Source of the DNA: an uncultured Bacillota bacterium
Lineage (GTDB): Bacteria; Bacillota; Dehalobacteriia; UBA7702
Direction: 5' to 3'
Assembly: GCA_902796855.1 (NCBI GenBank)
Contig: CADBQN010000004.1
Span: 1 to 37,576, forward strand
DNA length: 37,576 bases
The position numbers and the translations under genes were made by a program. The notes under the pieces were generated by a model, which worked only from the letters and a program-made list of their open reading frames with translations, was not told the origin of the DNA and made no database searches. This document shows positions 84 to 35,810 of the stretch, piece by piece; the first letter of the stretch is position 1, and every line of letters starts with the position of its first letter.

Positions 84-118
84 CAAAAAAAGCCTTTCCC
101 CGAAAAACGGGGAAAGGC
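84..118 (-). terminator. intrinsic terminator of mtbBC
   Basis: A perfect 11-bp stem (92-102 with 108-118) around a 5-nt A/T loop is followed, reading the minus strand, by a run of seven T (85-91). It lies about 30 nt past the mtbC stop codon, so mtbB-mtbC form a transcription unit that ends here, without mtbA or a reactivase gene attached. Confidence 0.9.
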
Positions 119-149: not shown

Positions 150-797
150 TTACTGCGTCAGCAGTTCCAGCACTCTGTCGACGGCTTCGGCGGCGTCTTC
201 GGCATAGGACGTGGCGCCGATCCGCTTGGCCCAGCGCTTCGTCACCGGCGCGCCGCCGACCATCGTTTTATACTTTTCGCGGATGCCGCGGTTCTTTAAT
301 TCTTCTTCCAGATTTTTCTGCTGCACCATCGTCGTTGTCAGCAGCGCGGAGGTGCCGATGATATCGGCGCTGTTCGCTTCGGCCTCATCGACGATGGTCT
401 TTACCGGCACGTCGCGGCCGAGGTCGATGACGTTGATGCCCTGAGTCCTCAGGAGGGATACGACGATCCCCTTGCCGATATCGTGAACGTCTCCCTCCAC
501 GGTGGCCAGCACCATCGTGCCTTTGACGGCGCTCTCGCTCCCGTCGGCGGAGAGCTCGTCGATGTAGGCGCTCATATCCTTCATGATATCCGCCGCCATG
601 ATCAGCTCCGGCAGGAACAGCTCCCCGCGGCCAAAGCCGTCGCCGACCTCGCGGATGCCGGCGCTGAATCCCTCGGACAGCAGTTCGATCAAGTTCATAC
701 CTTCTTTCTGCGCTTTTCGCACCGTTTCTTTTCCCGCTTCGGCGTCGCATTGTTTAATCGCGGAAATCGCGTCTTTGATCAAAGCTTCTTTACTCAT
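150..797 (-). CDS. mtbC: dimethylamine corrinoid protein MtbC
   Basis: This 215-residue protein is a methyltransferase-associated corrinoid protein. It carries the methyl group on Co(I)/Co(III)-cobamide between a methylamine:corrinoid methyltransferase and a downstream acceptor enzyme. The N-terminal helical cap (about 1-90) is followed by a B12-binding Rossmann domain with the DxHxxG signature GDVHDIG (His105 is the predicted lower cobalt ligand), then an SxL-type loop (TSALLTT) and a GG motif (VGGAPVT). The length matches MtbC/MttC/MtmC family members, which are about 210-220 residues. The ATG at 797 follows an AGGAG ribosome binding site and lies 36 nt after the mtbB stop, so the two are co-transcribed. 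Pairing with mtbB makes MtbC the best name; sequence alone does not fully exclude MttC or another methyl-donor specificity. It is cytoplasmic. Confidence 0.87.
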   Translation of the reverse strand: MSKEALIKDAISAIKQCDAEAGKETVRKAQKEGMNLIELLSEGFSAGIREVGDGFGRGELFLPELIMAADIMKDMSAYIDELSADGSESAVKGTMVLATVEGDVHDIGKGIVVSLLRTQGINVIDLGRDVPVKTIVDEAEANSADIIGTSALLTTTMVQQKNLEEELKNRGIREKYKTMVGGAPVTKRWAKRIGATSYAEDAAEAVDRVLELLTQ

Positions 798-833: not shown

Positions 834-2225
834 TCAAAGGGAAGCCCAATTTCTGAACTTCGAAACGGAGTTAATTTCAATATCGAGAAGTTCGGCGATC
901 CGCGCCTTGGCCAGCAGCGCTACGGCCGATTCGGGCCGGGCGTTGGTTTCGCCGATGTTCAGTTCGTTGCGGATATCCCGCATCACGGAAGAATCGTGGA
1001 GATCTTCCAGACTGATTTTCAGCCGATCCGCCACGTATCGCTTCGCGTCGTCAATTTTCAGTTTCTTCGCCATCTGCGCCCGGGCGACCAGATCTCCGGC
1101 CGTCCGAATACCGCTCATGCCGGCGGAAACTTCGTGGTTGATGGGCATTCCGTAGCAGTCGCCGACGCCGATCTACAAGCCGTCGGCGTGGGCAATTTCC
1201 ACCAGGGCTTTATCGGCCCGGGAGGCGGCGTCCAGAGGGACGGAATCCGTCAGCGGCATGGCGCAGACGCCCATGCCGACATTGGGATGAATCGGGATAT
1301 CACTCACTTCGGCACAGGCCTTGATGAAGGTGACGACCCGGGCGATGTTCCAGGGGAAGGACATGCTGCTGTTGGTGTTCACGGTGGGGCCAAAGATATC
1401 GACGCCGGCCTTTTCCGCAACTTTTACCTGCTCATGGGGGTAGAGCCCGGCCAGGCGCTGTCCCTCAAATTCCAGCTCACCGTGCATGCCCAGATAGAAC
1501 TCACCGGCCATACCCGCTTCCACCGGAAAATCAGGATGCATTTCCTTGATTTTTTTCACGGCCTTAAAGGCGGCGAGGGCGTCGGCGTCGCCGGAAGCCC
1601 CGACGGTATCCAGATTGATGCCGTCCGCTCCGGCCTCATACATCCGGTGAGCGACGGTGACAATGTCTTTTACGGCGTGTTCCACGGCGATTTCCTGAGC
1701 TTCCCGGGCTTCGTCGATCTTCCCGGCGGGGAGGAGCTCCGCCCAGTTGCCGACGGGGCCGTCGGGTTTGGTGTAGAGCCCCAAATTGGGCATGGCGCCG
1801 TAAAACACGGGGATGATCGTATTGAGCTGAGCGTGGTGCATGGCACAGACCTCATCGTGGATGATGGGTTTGATGGGTTTAAAGCTGTAGTCGATGTGGG
1901 CCAGCTCCGCCGTGTCCATGCAGAGGATTTTTTCGTCGATCATCAGCGCCGTCGTGCGGTCGATGGAAACGCCGCAGCGGGTGGAGACTTTGAGCGTCCC
2001 CTCGTCGTTGGTCACGACGACTTCCTTCCCCGGGTCCACGGTGACAAATTTCTGCGGCATGGTGCAGATTTCCAAAAGATACTCCCGCTCGTCCGCGGCG
2101 AGGGGCGGGATTTTTCCGCGCTCCGCGGCGTCTTCCGTCCCCAAATCAATTTCCTCGCGGATCTCAGCGGCGGTCATGGTGTCGCCGTAGCCGTCGCCAT
2201 AGCGAATAAAGTATTTCTCTGCCAT
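834..2225 (-). CDS. mtbB: dimethylamine:corrinoid methyltransferase MtbB with in-frame amber (pyrrolysine) codon
   Basis: It transfers a methyl group from dimethylamine to the corrinoid protein MtbC. The frame opens with ATG at 2225 behind a strong GAGGAGGT site 6 nt away. It reaches TAG at 1173-1175 (codon 351) and continues in the same frame for 112 sense codons to TGA at 834. The total is 463 residues, close to the archaeal MtbB length of about 467. The sequence around the amber, ADGL-TAG-IGVGDCYGMP, continues into SAGMSGIRTAGDLVARAQ, as expected for this family, where pyrrolysine sits at about residue 356 in Methanosarcina. A conventional annotation would report a 350-residue protein plus a separate 104-residue fragment. 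The gene is followed by mtbC and preceded by a MerR regulator. The known family (MtbB) and the codon position are established knowledge. Decoding as pyrrolysine here is inferred, since no pyl genes are in view. Confidence 0.93.
1173..1175 (-). other. in-frame UAG, predicted pyrrolysine codon
   Basis: The codon TAG on the minus strand interrupts mtbB at codon 351. The flanking codons on both sides encode conserved methyltransferase sequence in one frame, and no other stop occurs in the 464 codons. The TAG matches the active-site pyrrolysine of MtbB in place and context. No ribosomal SECIS-like element was needed for this reading, and I could not recognise a clear PYLIS stem by eye. Confidence 0.9.
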
Positions 2226-2542: not shown

Positions 2543-3331
2543 TTAACAGCGGTTTCCTTCTCCCTTCGGCGTCAAAAAGACTTCGTAATAGCGGACAGGG
2601 TGCTCCCAATCGCCGGTGGAGAGGATATACGACACGTAGCAGGGAAATTCCACATCAAAGCCGTGCTCCGCGGCGCGGGAGCGGGCGAGTGACGCGGCGG
2701 CCTCGTTATCGAAATCCCCGGGGACGCGGACGGTGACGGCGACGGTCTCAAAGGAAGGGATCAAATCGCACTCAAGGGAGCGGTCCTCCGGCGCGACGCA
2801 GCCGATGTCCTCGTCGTAGATCATGCAGACGCTCAGCGACGGCCAGCCGCGGCTGTCGCTCTCGCCGCCGCGGAGGGAAAAGGGATTCGCCACCGTGAAG
2901 GTGCTGCGCTGCCGGTCGTAAAAGGAATCGATGCGGAAGAGATGGAGGTCGCCGCTTTCCACCCGGCGCGGCGGCTGATCCCAGCGCGCCGCCTTTTCCA
3001 GCATCCGCTTATAGTAGCGCCAAAAACCGAGGCGGCGGGTTTCCTTCTCGATCCGCGCCATCGTCTCCCGTTCCTGGCCGCGCACCATCTCGTTGATGCT
3101 CTCAAGGCTGTCGGAGTGTTTGAGGCGGTAGATATCGCTGACGCTCATATCGAGGCTGCGGTGGTAGCTGATGCTCCACAGCTTATAGACATCGTCGTCG
3201 GTGAAAGTCCGATAGCCGTTCTCCTCGTTCTTCGACACGGAAAAGAGGCCCTTGCGCTCGTAAAAGCGAATGGCCGAGGAGGAGATCCCCAATTTCTGCG
3301 CGACTTCCTTGATCTTATACGTTTCCGACAT
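2543..3331 (-). CDS. MerR-family transcriptional regulator with C-terminal effector-binding domain
   Basis: The N-terminal winged helix-turn-helix (about residues 1-75) has the MerR features KIKEVAQKLGISSSAIRFYE and the NGYRTFTDDDV wing. It is followed by a dimerisation helix with many charged residues (to about 125). The remaining 135 residues look like a GyrI/SOUL-type small-molecule-binding domain. There is no cysteine cluster typical of metal sensors, so a drug- or metabolite-responsive activator of the TipA/BmrR kind is more likely. The ATG at 3331 has GGGGG 7 nt upstream; a GTG one codon earlier is possible. It follows the Gdx exporter by 24 nt in the same direction, so it may be co-transcribed with it and control it. 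It also lies directly upstream of mtbB, which it could regulate; the sequence does not decide between these. Confidence 0.82.
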   Translation of the reverse strand: MSETYKIKEVAQKLGISSSAIRFYERKGLFSVSKNEENGYRTFTDDDVYKLWSISYHRSLDMSVSDIYRLKHSDSLESINEMVRGQERETMARIEKETRRLGFWRYYKRMLEKAARWDQPPRRVESGDLHLFRIDSFYDRQRSTFTVANPFSLRGGESDSRGWPSLSVCMIYDEDIGCVAPEDRSLECDLIPSFETVAVTVRVPGDFDNEAAASLARSRAAEHGFDVEFPCYVSYILSTGDWEHPVRYYEVFLTPKGEGNRC

Positions 3332-3355
3332 CACATTTCCCCCGTTTTTTCGCCG

Positions 3356-14481: not shown

Positions 14482-17400
14482 TTATTTCAAATCACGATAG
14501 AGGAATGTCACTATCTGCGCTCGCGTACAAACCGTTTCGGGGCTGAACGTTGTCGGGGTCGTTCCGTTGGTGACGCCCTTTTCCACGGCCCACAGCACTG
14601 CTTCATAATAGAACCGGTCGGGGGAAACATCCGCAAATGGATTTTCGGTACTGCCGGGAGAAGGCATCTTTTCAAAACGATGCAGGAAAGTTACAACCTG
14701 ACCGCGCGTACAGCCCGAATCGGGGCTGAACGTCGTTGCCGTCGTTCCCTTGGTGATATCCTTTTCCACGGCCCACAGCACCGCTTTATCATAGTAGGCG
14801 CCGATGCGCACATCGCTGAAAGGATTTTGATCGCTCGTCGGTTCCGGGCTTCCCGCCGCGCGCCACAGGAAGGTCACAACCTGACCGCGCGTACATGTCG
14901 CGTCGGGACTGAACGTCGTTGCCGTCGTTCCCTTGGTGATATTCTTTTCCACGGCCCACAGCACCGCGTCATAGTAGAATCTGCCCTCCCGTACATCGGA
15001 GAAGGGATTTCTTTTATCCTTTTGCAGTTCGGTATAGGTGTCTTCCGCGGCTTTCAGCACTGACTCGTTGTCAACGAGTTTCTTCTGATCTTCCGTCAAC
15101 TGTTCATATGCTTCTCTGGCTTTTTGAATCGCCTCACCGCTGTCGCCCGTCACAGTGCCGATGGCTTCAATGAGTTCTTTCACTTTATCCGGCGTTGGCA
15201 GAGCAGAATTCTTTAATTCATTATAAGCTTTTTCTGCCGCCTCCAAAACCTTGATATTATCGACAAGTTTCTTTTGCTCCGCGGTCAGTTTGTTATAGGC
15301 GTCGCGGGCTTTCTGAATGGCGTCGCCGCTGTTCATCGTTACCGTGCCGATGCTGCCAATGAGATTCTTTACTTTGTCCGCGGCTGCCTTATCCGCCGCC
15401 GCTTTGTTTTTCAGATCGGCATAAGCTTTCTCCGCCGCCTCCAGTACCTTGATATTATCAACAAGTTTCTTTTGGTTCGCGGTCAGTTTGTTATAGGCGT
15501 CGCGGGCTTTCTGAATGGCGTCGCCGCTGTTCACCGTTACCGTGCCGATACCGCCAATGAGATTCTTTACTTTGTCCGCCGCGGCTTTATTCTGCAGATC
15601 GGCATAGGCTTTCTCCGCCGCCTCCAAAACCTTGATATTATCAACAAGTTTCTTTTGCTCCGCAGACAGATGATTATAACCTTCCCGAGCTTTTTGGAGA
15701 ATCTCCCCGCTGTTCAGCGTCACCGTACCGATGGCGTTAATAAGCACTTTCACGGCTTCAACCTCAGCGTCACCGCTGTAGCCGCTTTCATAGAGAAGCA
15801 CCTGGGTCTTTTTCGCGCCGCAGACCTTGCAGACATAGGTTACGACTCCGTTCGCCGACGGCGTCGCTTTTTTCGTAACGGTACCGTCATCCCACTCATG
15901 CGGTTCCGATTCCGTTACACCGCATTCGGAACAAGTGTGAGTATGAGCCCCCGCACCGTTATCTTTCCAGGCAGAGAATTTATGTTTCGTATGTCCCGAG
16001 GAAGGCAATTCGGAGGTGGGAGGCGAGACGGACTCTTTCGCCGGCAAAATACGGAAAAAGAGAATTGTTCCCCACGTTTCCCCACTGGAAAAAGTCGTCA
16101 CAATCTGCGCCGAATAAGTGTCAGATGCTTCCTGCTGTTTCACCGTACCGGTAATGCGTCCCAGACTATCCATCGTCAGACCGGCCGGAAGCGGCATACT
16201 CTTGCGGACTTCCATTTTTGTAACAGTATGCTTCGTCGTATGCTGTTTCGGACAATTCACGCTGTACTGCAGCTGAATATTGACTTTTTCGCCCTGAGTC
16301 ACTTCAAAATTGGTCTTCTGGAAGCTCACGGAATCATGAGGAGATGTAAGGGGTGTATAGTTACCATACGTATATGACAAAATAAGACCCTTCGTCGTCA
16401 GATTGGCATTATTCGGCGCGTTGTAATCCGTACGTTTCTTCCCGTCGATTGTCCAAGGGAATTCTTTATTGCTGTTGTATTTAAAACTGTATTTTCCGAA
16501 ATCCGAGACAACAACTGTTATTTTGTAGGAAGGATTGTGAGAAATGAGAATACCGCTGCTGTTCACACCGGTCCATTCAATGTTCGTAATCTTTGCCCGA
16601 GGATCGTTTAGTTTTAAATCATTTACAGTAGGGGCTTTATCCCCGAGATACAGGTCGCCGATTCCGGTGATATCCAAAGACGTGATATACCCCGGCGGAG
16701 TCCCCGATGAGATGGTCACCCTAAATTCGCCGCTGGATATGGTATTCTGAACGTTGCCGGCAGTCACCGTTATTTTGCAGACGTAGGTACCGGCGTCAGA
16801 GGTGTTCACCTTCCCGATGCAAAGCGAATCCCCGTAAAACGCGTAATGATTGTTGGCGGAAATGAGCGTCCCGTTCTTATACCATTTACGCGATATCGTT
16901 GATCCGTAGCTTTGCAGATTGTCAACGGCAGTTATGTAAAGATTTTCCCCGACATAACCGGTAATATATTGAATCTGATTGCCGTTTTCGAACGTCGGCA
17001 TATAGTTTACTTCCGCTTCCGCACATTTTTTTGATCCGCGTTGATTTTTAAACATACAGTAAAAAGATGCAACATCATTCACAGGTACGGTAAGTGTCGC
17101 GACACCGTTATTAAAAGAAGTACATTCAAAACGTTTTGAGCCTTCGGGGCCGCTCCGAACCCACCATGCTTCGGTGGCGTTTTTCGCTTTGGCGGTCAGC
17201 GTTACATTAGCTCCTTTTTTCGAAGCGATCTGCGGTGTCGGTGAAGAAAGAATTTCTACGGGATCCTGATTGACCGCACGAACCCACATCGTGGCCGACC
17301 GTTCTATCCGATAGGTTTGAACACCGATATATGTTTCTACAGCTGATCCTCTTACCAAGTAGAGATTATCATTCAGCATTTTATCCGTCAGCCCGGGAAT

Positions 17401-18648
17401 GGTTGAGAGATCCGCGATGGAAGAAGCGTTTTTTAATGTGCCCAACACCGAATAACCGGTGGCCGCATTGTAACTGTAGACAGTATAATCATAAGTCAAG
17501 GCATAGTAACCGCCGGTAATCGCCGCGGTATCCTTAAAACTCTGCGTTCCTTTTGTCTCAAAAACGAGCTGCTTTGCGGTTTTTGGATTCAGGACCGGTG
17601 GATTTCCGTTGGGATCAGCGACACATTTAAGCGTTGTTTTATTGGAAGTCGGCAGAATATTGATTTTTTCTCTTGCCTTATCCGCGGCGCCATCGGCGAT
17701 TTGGGTTTCGTTAAGAAGTTTTTTCCCTTTAAAGATTTGACAATTTTTCGTCGTCGCTCTGACGGGCACGCCGGCAACACCCGTTTCATAATGACGGGTC
17801 ACATTGAGTCCATCAAAATAAGTTGCGACGGGCAAGTCCTGCCTTGAGGGATGAAATATCCCCGCTTTGATGGAAATATTTACGTTAGAGCCAATTTGCA
17901 GAACATCAGCCTGGCCCTTTCCATAAAAGCAGCCGTCGTTGATAATCAACGTTCCGCCATCAGCATGAACAGCGGCGGCGGCGGAAAAAAGACCGTAGTT
18001 TTCCTTATATATATAACCGCGCCCCTGCAGAAGACCGCCGTTAATTGTTGTCGTCCCGCTTTTCTGGACAAGAGCGAATCCGTTTACCTGACGCCACGCA
18101 TTTTTAAAGCCAAAATGAATCCCCAGGTTGTCTTTTCGGGAACGACCGGCTTCCAGTGTTCCGGAATTCACCGTCAATGTCCCACCGTTATTCTCGACGA
18201 TATGACGTTTTGTATCGCCGCCGGAATAGATTCGGCCGTCATAGTTCATCCAACCTTCTTTCTTTTGGGAGCTGTCTTTGATTGTCAATGAAGTTCCGGC
18301 ATTGATTTGAAACAACGTGGTGTCTCGCAGGGAGGCTTCATCATAACTTACTTTAAGATCATGCCCGTTCAGATCAATGGTTTTTTTGCCCTTACCGAGA
18401 ACACACCAGTAATGGACGAAGTCGAAGCTTTGATCACCGGAAGAAGACTCGATACCAATACGTCCTTTTAAATTTTTTGTCAGTGTTATGTTAACATCAC
18501 CGTCTTTTTCCATCCATGATTTAAAGGTCGTAATATTATCGACACTCAAATTAGTTGCTGCGGTCACCGGAACGGTGACGGCAAACATCAAACACGTTAT
18601 TGTCACTAACATCAAAAGCAGAGATATAAATGATTTTTGTATTTGCAT
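14482..18648 (-). CDS. large SLH-domain surface protein
   Basis: The 1388-residue protein has a signal peptide (to about 30, VTAA), then a region to about 330 with strand repeats rich in Gly/Asn (e.g. GGTLTVNSGTLEAG) that suggest a beta-helix. Immunoglobulin-like segments follow (about 477-535; 580-630 with DAGTYVCKI), a putative-Ig segment (about 810-850, PLPAGLTMDSLGRITG), a Cys/His zinc-like stretch (about 900-940), four tandem three-helix repeats (about 964-1205) and three SLH domains (about 1213, 1273, 1334) that bind secondary cell wall polymer. It should be displayed on the cell surface. Base composition is visibly lower in GC than its neighbours, pointing to possible transfer or different selection. 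Function is unknown; adhesion or S-layer association is inferred. Confidence 0.9.
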   Translation of the reverse strand: MQIQKSFISLLLMLVTITCLMFAVTVPVTAATNLSVDNITTFKSWMEKDGDVNITLTKNLKGRIGIESSSGDQSFDFVHYWCVLGKGKKTIDLNGHDLKVSYDEASLRDTTLFQINAGTSLTIKDSSQKKEGWMNYDGRIYSGGDTKRHIVENNGGTLTVNSGTLEAGRSRKDNLGIHFGFKNAWRQVNGFALVQKSGTTTINGGLLQGRGYIYKENYGLFSAAAAVHADGGTLIINDGCFYGKGQADVLQIGSNVNISIKAGIFHPSRQDLPVATYFDGLNVTRHYETGVAGVPVRATTKNCQIFKGKKLLNETQIADGAADKAREKINILPTSNKTTLKCVADPNGNPPVLNPKTAKQLVFETKGTQSFKDTAAITGGYYALTYDYTVYSYNAATGYSVLGTLKNASSIADLSTIPGLTDKMLNDNLYLVRGSAVETYIGVQTYRIERSATMWVRAVNQDPVEILSSPTPQIASKKGANVTLTAKAKNATEAWWVRSGPEGSKRFECTSFNNGVATLTVPVNDVASFYCMFKNQRGSKKCAEAEVNYMPTFENGNQIQYITGYVGENLYITAVDNLQSYGSTISRKWYKNGTLISANNHYAFYGDSLCIGKVNTSDAGTYVCKITVTAGNVQNTISSGEFRVTISSGTPPGYITSLDITGIGDLYLGDKAPTVNDLKLNDPRAKITNIEWTGVNSSGILISHNPSYKITVVVSDFGKYSFKYNSNKEFPWTIDGKKRTDYNAPNNANLTTKGLILSYTYGNYTPLTSPHDSVSFQKTNFEVTQGEKVNIQLQYSVNCPKQHTTKHTVTKMEVRKSMPLPAGLTMDSLGRITGTVKQQEASDTYSAQIVTTFSSGETWGTILFFRILPAKESVSPPTSELPSSGHTKHKFSAWKDNGAGAHTHTCSECGVTESEPHEWDDGTVTKKATPSANGVVTYVCKVCGAKKTQVLLYESGYSGDAEVEAVKVLINAIGTVTLNSGEILQKAREGYNHLSAEQKKLVDNIKVLEAAEKAYADLQNKAAADKVKNLIGGIGTVTVNSGDAIQKARDAYNKLTANQKKLVDNIKVLEAAEKAYADLKNKAAADKAAADKVKNLIGSIGTVTMNSGDAIQKARDAYNKLTAEQKKLVDNIKVLEAAEKAYNELKNSALPTPDKVKELIEAIGTVTGDSGEAIQKAREAYEQLTEDQKKLVDNESVLKAAEDTYTELQKDKRNPFSDVREGRFYYDAVLWAVEKNITKGTTATTFSPDATCTRGQVVTFLWRAAGSPEPTSDQNPFSDVRIGAYYDKAVLWAVEKDITKGTTATTFSPDSGCTRGQVVTFLHRFEKMPSPGSTENPFADVSPDRFYYEAVLWAVEKGVTNGTTPTTFSPETVCTRAQIVTFLYRDLK
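15050..15770 (-). repeat. four tandem repeats of about 190-200 bp inside the SLH gene
   Basis: The segments, each containing an IGTV-SG motif followed by a YxxLTxxQKKLVDN helix, recur four times. Two inner copies share an almost identical stretch of over 50 bp (about 15288-15340 and 15479-15532). The last linker in the third copy has an extra AAADK duplication. Such near-identity allows copy-number changes by recombination. Confidence 0.8.
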
Positions 18649-19125: not shown

Positions 19126-19126
19126 T
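19091..19126 (-). terminator. intrinsic terminator of secA-prfB
   Basis: A perfect 17-bp palindrome, arms 19091-19107 and 19110-19126, with GC-rich core and A/T-rich base; it reaches the prfB stop codon. The T-run on the minus strand makes it a strong terminator. Confidence 0.9.
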
Positions 19127-20233
19127 TAAATTTCACTGTCCACGGTGGCTTTCAGATAGCCGAAGATAAAGTCGTCGAGATCGCCGTCCATGACGGCGTC
19201 GACGTTGCCCACTTCCACGGAAGTGCGGTGATCCTTCACCATCTTATAGGGCGCGAAAACGTAGGAACGGATCTGGCTTCCCCAGCCGATTTCCTGATGT
19301 TCCCCGCGGATGCCCTGCATCTCGTCTTCCTGCTGCTGACGCTGGCGGTCCAGAAGTTTCGCCTTTAAGAGCTTCAGCGCCTTGTCGAGATTGGCGTGCT
19401 GGGAGCGCTCGTCCTGACAGGTGACGACGATCCCCGTTTCGTAGTGGGTCAGGCGGATGGCGCTGTCGGTCTTGTTGATATGCTGGCCGCCGGCGCCGCT
19501 GGAACGGAACGTGTCCTTTCGGTACTCGTCTTCCTTCAGCTCGATTTCGTCATCAAACTCCACCTGGGGGATGACGTCCAGCGAGGCGAAGGAGGTGTGG
19601 CGGCGTTTCGCCGCGTCGAAGGGAGAAATGCGGACGAGACGATGGACGCCTTTTTCCGCTTTCAGATAGCCGTAGGCGTTCACCCCTTCCACGCCGAAGG
19701 TCACGCTCTTCGTCCCGGCTTCTTCGCCGGGGAGCATATCGATGACATCCACCTTAAAACCGTGTTTCTCACAGTAGCGGGTATACATGCGGTAGAGCAT
19801 GCCGGCCCAGTCCTGGGCCTCCACGCCGCCGCTGCCGGCGTGGATCGACAAAATGGCGTTGTGGCCGTCGTACTTGCCGTTTAAGAGCGTTTCCAGTTCC
19901 AGAGCGTCCACGGCCTTTTCACAGTCGGCGCACTGGGCGGCGACGTCGCCTTCCAGGCTTTCGTCATTCTCGTCCACCGCCAGCTCCCAGTAGGTCTCCA
20001 CGTCTTCCAGCTGGGCTTCGACTTTGAGATACTTTTCTTCTTTGTTTTTCAGCGCCGTCGTTTCCCGCAGCACCGCCTGGGCGGCGTCGCGGTCGTCCCA
20101 AAAACCGGGATCGGCGGCTTTGGCTTCAAGTTCCTCGATTTTTTGTCTCAGGCCGGGCAAGTCAAAGTGCATCCCTCAGATCTGCCAGCCTGCGTTTCAT
20201 TTCGGATAGATTCTGCTTTAAATCCATCAGCAT
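19126..20233 (-). CDS. prfB: peptide chain release factor 2, programmed +1 frameshift
   Basis: RF2 reads UAA and UGA and releases peptide chains. The start is ATG at 20233 behind AAGGGG, 13 nt after the secA stop. The first 23 codons end at an in-frame TGA (20162-20164), in the context CTT TGA C, with an AGG-GA internal Shine-Dalgarno a few nt upstream. A +1 shift on CTTTGAC joins the rest (GAC at 20161), for 368 residues in total. SPF (RISPFDAAKRRH) and GGQ (SGAGGQHINKTDS) motifs are intact. This is the classic autoregulated frameshift of prfB. The usual annotation from the in-frame ATG at 20172 would miss the N-terminus. secA precedes it, as in most Bacillota. Confidence 0.95.
20161..20176 (-). 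promoter_or_regulatory. prfB +1 frameshift site
   Basis: The slip sequence is CTT TGA C (20161-20167 on the minus strand) with AGG (20174-20176) acting as the stimulating Shine-Dalgarno-like sequence. When RF2 is low, ribosomes pause at UGA and shift forward by one nucleotide. Confidence 0.9.
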
Positions 20234-32651: not shown

Positions 32652-32694
32652 ATATAAAATAGACCATTCCATCCCGGCTCTTCCTTCCCGAGCT

Positions 32695-32880
32695 CCGGAA
32701 TCACATGGCAGGTTTCCTGACTTGAGCTTCATCTTACTTTCCGGCCTTCTCCACGCAATACGTGCGCCAATGGCATGTTCGGATTTCATCTTCTCTCACA
32801 GTAGCGGGTGCTGTAACGGATTTCAACCGTTTTTCCTTTTACCCGGAGGGCCACCCCTCCGGCACCGTCCTTATGAAATT
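32695..32880 (-). ncRNA. cobalamin riboswitch
   Basis: On the minus strand the region from about 32880 to 32695 contains the hallmarks of the RF00174-type aptamer: an ACGGTTGAAATCCGTTACAG block followed by CACCCGCTACTGTGAG (about 32797-32833) and the B12 box, AGTCAGGAAACCTGCCA (about 32711-32727). It is positioned between the promoter (32887-32914) and the terminator in front of cobT. Exact ends were not folded by computation. Confidence 0.93.
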
Positions 32881-32886
32881 ATCTCT

Positions 32887-35574: not shown

Positions 35575-35810
35575 TGCTTCCTTAGTCTCAGACCGTTTGG
35601 ATAGCGCTTCACCAAAGTGACAGTGCATTGCATATGCTGCAATACCCCAGCGGCATGATCCGGGCAAACCATACGGCTTCGGCAATTTCCCTTTTCCCTC
35701 CGCCGGTGCCCGCCGTCGCGGAAAGCGCCGCCGGAGCAAAGCCCGGCTTTTCGCCTTTCCCAGGAGCTACTTGTGAAAATCGCGCCTCTATCTTAACTCA
35801 AAACGATATA
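35575..35810 (-). ncRNA. lysine riboswitch (L box)
   Basis: Minus-strand reading from about 35800 shows the lysine aptamer core: AGATAGAGGCGCG then ACAAGTAG (35770-35795), GGGAAAGGCGAAAAGCC, AAATTGCCGAAGCC (about 35672-35690), a GCTGGGG loop, GCAATGCACTGTCAC and GAAGCGCTATCC (about 35595-35640). The TTGACG/TAAGAT promoter precedes it and a terminator follows. Both ends are estimated by eye. It regulates the transporter operon by lysine concentration. Confidence 0.9.

Follow-up and report, generated by a model that had tools for sequence, protein, structure and literature searches.

A dimethylamine methyltransferase operon with an in-frame TAG, very probably read as pyrrolysine, in an anaerobic bacterium

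The window analysed here (the whole stretch of 37,576 nucleotides, from a draft assembly of 84 contigs that is 98.4% complete) carries close to one of its ends an operon on the minus strand. Its genes and signals, together with the gene that lies upstream of them, are as follows:

92 to 118, minus strand: strong terminator-like hairpin after mtbC (an 11-pair stem, then 7 T), the end of the mtbB-mtbC operon
150 to 797, minus strand: mtbC-like gene for the cognate corrinoid protein, with B12-binding domains, directly downstream of mtbB
834 to 2225, minus strand: mtbB, dimethylamine:corrinoid methyltransferase by its family matches (TIGR02368, PF09505), 463 residues with the TAG predicted to be read as pyrrolysine (residue 351)
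1076 to 1175, minus strand: match to PYLIS_2 (Rfam RF02509, the mtbB pyrrolysine insertion sequence), 65.4 bits with a gathering threshold of 36, beginning exactly at the TAG
1173 to 1175, minus strand: in-frame TAG, codon 351, in the motif DGL-O-IGVGD, at the pyrrolysine position of MtbB
2543 to 3334, minus strand: gene for a MerR-family regulator (PF13411, PF00376), upstream of mtbB

The mtbB frame opens with an ATG at 2225, which is preceded by the ribosome-binding-like GAGGAGGT, and closes with a TGA ending at 834. The TAG is its single interruption; around it the translation reads ADGL-O-IGVGDCYGM, and after it come 112 more codons. An initial annotation had described just such a frame, open across codon 351 into 112 further codons, and this description proved correct on the minus strand. 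The coordinates that it gave (1173-2225), however, stop at the TAG and cover only the N-terminal part, and the whole gene occupies 834-2225. As the same annotation had stated, standard gene calling splits mtbB into two short proteins, one of 350 aa (1173-2225) and the other of 104 aa (834-1148). A plus-strand reading of 1173-2600 was rejected, since it yields an unrelated frame. The position of the MerR-family gene suggests that it may regulate the mtbB-mtbC operon.

Judged by its sequence the gene is a member of the MtbB family. The Pfam model PF09505 (Dimeth_Pyl) gives one match that covers residues 4-459 and passes across the TAG (620 bits, cut-off 25), and the NCBIfam equivalog TIGR02368 (dimethylamine--corrinoid methyltransferase) matches over the full length with a score of 502 bits, where 369 are required. 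PYLIS_2 matches other MtbB genes as well, and because this model was built on conserved mtbB coding sequence, its match here supports the identity of the gene more than an RNA mechanism. The AlphaFold model of MtbB has a mean pLDDT of 80, with residues 354-367, just after the TAG, falling below 50; a Foldseek search with it retrieved generic TIM barrels, with a TMq of at most 0.40 among the matches listed, and the predicted structure thus carries no weight for or against the assignment. A sequence search of the PDB found no MtbB relative. The mtbC-like protein scores 216.6 bits against 215.3 for TIGR02370, the pyl_corrinoid subfamily, and 209.5 bits for the MtbC equivalog, whose cut-off is 350.

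How much does the open frame beyond the TAG say about its decoding? By shuffling, such a frame would arise by chance with a probability of about 0.012 in this window of 57% GC, where 13 of the 248 TAG trinucleotides are followed by at least 112 open codons; only the mtbB TAG also has at least 300 open codons before it. Taken alone, the open frame is only modest evidence. Homology provides strong evidence for readthrough, in the form of a Pfam match that runs through the TAG, an invariant alignment column and purifying selection downstream. In an alignment of 31 MtbB genes (the six of this genome together with genes from the same class, a Desulforhopalus, an Actinobacteria MAG and Methanohalophilus) a single column holds TAG in all 31, the archaeal genes included, and the codon thus lies where the initial annotation had placed it, at the pyrrolysine position. 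The post-TAG codons of mtbB are under purifying selection in four close pairs, at ratios (dN/dS 0.005-0.11) similar to those upstream. The downstream and upstream values are 0.019 and 0.024 for the pair L005-L039, 0.005 and 0.012 for L002-L041, 0.081 and 0.050 for L003-L040, and 0.109 and 0.047 for L003-L038. Such low values past the TAG in related pairs imply that the post-TAG part is translated and needed. For the window gene and its nearest relative (L017, 72% identity) the downstream dN/dS is 0.20, and the two are too distant for an upstream dS.

These results bear directly on the possibility of genuine termination at the TAG, with mtbB either a pseudogene in decay or truncated in a regulated way. 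In formal terms the codon terminates the frame, standard callers divide the gene there, and a few real TAG stops do seem to exist in the sampled DNA: over about 117 kb, TAG closes 11 of the 96 predicted ORFs, of which 8 are pyrrolysine methyltransferases with coding extensions, so that with the methyltransferases set aside 3 of 88 ORFs (3.4%) may have a true TAG stop. Nonetheless, the purifying selection that acts beyond the TAG in related copies, the recurrence of the same TAG column in 31 genes, a frame otherwise undisrupted and a complete pyl set in the assembly make this explanation highly improbable.

The initial annotation had proposed that the rest of the genome be searched for the genes of pyrrolysine synthesis and charging, the absence of which would have undone its reading. 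The predicted set is complete in the assembly (pylT, pylSc, pylSn, pylB, pylC and pylD) and forms a cassette on another contig (C5), at the locus designated L009:

L009 9259 to 10170: pylSc (320 bits, cut-off 178)
L009 10259 to 11071: pylD (205 bits, above the NCBIfam equivalog cut-off)
L009 12254 to 12326: pylT with a CTA anticodon, detected by ARAGORN
L009 12398 to 13468: pylB (458 bits, above the NCBIfam equivalog cut-off)
L009 13465 to 14634: pylC (371 bits, above the NCBIfam equivalog cut-off)
L009 14718 to 15530: pterin-binding methyltransferase gene, between pylC and pylSn
L009 about 15547 to 15924: pylSn (131 bits, cut-off 51)
L009 16104 to 17444: glutamate dehydrogenase gene, the last in this order, after pylSn

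PylSc and PylSn are separate genes on the same contig, about 5.4 kb apart, and the best match of PylSc is to the crystal structures of bacterial PylSc, 3dsq and 2zni (317 bits). The tRNA-Pyl folds with the unusual features for which this tRNA is known, a 6-bp anticodon stem, a 3-nt variable loop and one base between the acceptor and D stems; although ARAGORN detects it, an Rfam scan of the cassette found no family there. The order pylSc-pylD-pylT-pylB recurs in three relatives of the same family. Among the loci compared (L057-L062) the arrangement differs by family, being pylSc-pylD-pylT-pylB-pylC in the family of the host (f1) and pylT-pylSc-pylB-pylC in a second, Dehalobacterium-like family (f2). 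The gap between pylD and pylT (L009 11072-12253) is of about 1.2 kb and contains a repeat in two copies and a 151-aa frame without a family match; in the relatives L060-L062 it is merely about 60-180 bases.

The TAG might also be a sequencing or assembly error, as the initial annotation had itself allowed, or the contig might be of archaeal origin and misplaced in the bin. The assembly is indeed a draft and mtbB does lie near a contig end. An error can be ruled out in practice, however, because the same TAG is present in five more MtbB genes on other contigs and in independent genomes. An archaeal origin is contradicted by the bacterial-type secA, prfB, ftsE/ftsX, smpB and rnr on the mtbB contig, and by a pyl cassette whose split PylSc/PylSn is of bacterial architecture and whose gene order is common to the three family relatives. 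We regard either version of this explanation as having a vanishingly small probability.

The genome has six MtbB genes, each with one TAG (the copy on contig C17 is cut by the contig end), and the window copy shares 46-62% identity with the other five paralogues, both before and after that codon. There are, in addition, 18 genes of the MttB superfamily, 10 of them with one TAG and 8 without, and one gene of the MtmB family without TAG. The putative pyrrolysine proteins thus number 16 in 2.1 Mb. The TAG-less MtmB-family gene (L037 1534-2880; genome C44:12667-14034) encodes a tryptophan aligned with pyrrolysine 202 of Methanosarcina MtmB (1L2Q), and its contig also has a RamA-type gene with a pterin-type methyltransferase-like frame in front of it. 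In a RamA-type gene on C44, selenocysteine was rejected as a reading of the in-frame TGA, which ends a full-length frame of 630 residues and is a normal stop. There are three activase genes of the RACo/RamA type in the genome, so that the search for ramA that the initial annotation had recommended also gave a positive result; one RACo gene shares its contig (C16) with acetyl-CoA synthase.

Within the class, MtbB is present in 8 of 43 genomes, and the TAG is there in all copies for which the match extends to the site (L043 and L052 are N-terminal fragments). A pylS gene was found in all but one of these 8 and in none of the 35 others; the exception, the draft genome G007 (L046), has a TAG-MtbB and no pylS match, which could reflect either a missing contig or a loss of decoding. 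Two single-contig genomes of the class, of 6.4 Mb and 3.8 Mb, have 7 and 2 TAG-MtbB genes respectively, and both have pylS. The window MtbB falls in a clade with full support whose sole other member is from a rumen MAG, RUG11133, titled 'Selenomonas'; no orthologue was found among the MtbB genes of two congeners, a genome of the same family and four relatives in the class. RUG11133 (L017, L066) also has pylS, and its locus, as read from the sequence, has mtbC-mtbB followed by an ammonium-transporter-like gene. If bin and title are right, pyrrolysine occurs in a Selenomonas-like genome.

The gene, the position of its TAG, the selection past it, the complete pyl set and the partner genes can all be read from the DNA, and their best explanation is very probably an mtbB-mtbC operon whose UAG is decoded as pyrrolysine and whose products would act in an MtbB-MtbC-tetrahydrofolate pathway. 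From the known families we infer the insertion of pyrrolysine, the use of dimethylamine as substrate and the direction of the pathway. The host would be an anaerobic bacterium of the Wood-Ljungdahl type whose methylamine methyltransferases carry pyrrolysine at UAG codons. Two lysines would be converted to pyrrolysine by PylB, PylC and PylD, the split synthetase PylSc/PylSn would charge the tRNA-Pyl with its CUA anticodon, and at UAG codon 351 the ribosome would insert pyrrolysine and not terminate, giving the MtbB of 463 residues. In the active site of the MtbB barrel the pyrrolysine would activate dimethylamine, from which a methyl group would pass to the Co(I) of MtbC, the corrinoid being kept reduced by a RamA-type protein. 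The methyl group would then be transferred by a pterin-binding methyltransferase to tetrahydrofolate and enter acetyl-CoA synthesis or oxidation. This methyl-acceptor enzyme is probably the pterin-binding methyltransferase of the pyl cassette, instead of or besides an MtbA of the archaeal type.

The decoding could be the same and the substrate nonetheless another, if the window MtbB demethylates some secondary or tertiary amine other than dimethylamine. It is one of six diverged paralogues in a genome of 2.1 Mb, it stands in its own clade with RUG11133 as the only companion, and the non-pyrrolysine MttB superfamily is known for substrate diversification (PMC9768040). In opposition, the protein scores above the dimethylamine equivalog cut-off, its gene is paired with a corrinoid gene, as would be expected of mtbB, and the gene of its closest relative lies beside the ammonium-transporter-like gene of RUG11133. 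On balance a different substrate seems unlikely to us, although it deserves to be taken seriously, and dimethylamine is retained as the predicted one.

Pyrrolysine-containing MtbB has already been published for bacteria, and the window gene adds one more instance, which is right and well supported. An in-frame TAG is known in the dimethylamine methyltransferase of marine Deltaproteobacteria, whose genomes are reported to contain as many as five copies of TMA methyltransferase (PMC8318568). The MtbB of one of these, Desulforhopalus (L018), is 55% identical to that of the window and shares the in-frame TAG; the host of the window gene belongs to another phylum and has 10 TAG-MttB and 6 TAG-MtbB genes. 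In 'Candidatus Formimonas warabiya' DCMF, where the pyl set is complete, 23 of the 96 genes for methylamine methyltransferases, which include mtbB, code for pyrrolysine enzymes (PMC6778437). Seven pyrrolysine MttB proteins were found in its proteome, and its non-pyrrolysine MtmB resembles the TAG-less MtmB-family protein described above (PMC9768040). DCMF and Dehalobacterium formicoaceticum are probably of the same class as the host, but the host has a genome three times smaller, its pyl genes follow the order of the first family and not of the second, and the MtbB clade of the window is absent from them. Bilophila likewise combines a split pylS with a TAG-containing methylamine methyltransferase and an MtmB-like gene without TAG, but its pyrrolysine protein is MttB and it has no dimethylamine methyltransferase gene (PMC7593587). 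The archaeal MtbB of the Methanosarcinaceae (Methanohalophilus, L019-L021) is about 49% identical to the window protein and has the same length, the same TAG column, a PYLIS_2 match and a place in a corrinoid methyl-transfer system. It differs in that the host here is bacterial with a split PylSc/PylSn, and in that the methyl acceptor here is probably tetrahydrofolate, via the pterin-binding enzyme, and not coenzyme M via MtbA. What is noteworthy in the present genome is the number of paralogues, together with an MtbB subtype common only to the host and the rumen 'Selenomonas' MAG.

Several other elements of the window were observed, all on the minus strand. The gene for release factor 2 (prfB, 19126-20233) shows the classical +1 programmed frameshift: its short leading frame ends in CTT TGA C, at codon 24, and the main frame follows. 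The interval 14482-18648 encodes a protein of 1388 aa that combines Ig-like domains with three S-layer homology repeats. A lysine riboswitch (35594-35798) precedes an amino-acid ABC importer (33-35.5 kb), and a cobalamin riboswitch (32690-32884) precedes cobT/cobU-like genes. Pyrrolysine is made from lysine, and the cofactor is a corrinoid; the riboswitches may be connected with the pyrrolysine and corrinoid system, though by association only.

It is conceivable, and we put it forward tentatively, that this lineage has turned the pyrrolysine MtbB into an expanded family of six diverged paralogues, each devoted to a different N-methylated amine. Were the paralogues indeed to differ in substrate, bacterial pyrrolysine chemistry would reach beyond mono-, di- and trimethylamine. 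Standard annotation would split the genes of all the putative pyrrolysine proteins, hiding much of the methylamine metabolism of the organism. With 16 or more such proteins encoded in its 2.1 Mb and TAG stops nearly absent from the sampled DNA, this anaerobe would offer a practical natural system for the question of how bacteria balance amber decoding against termination.
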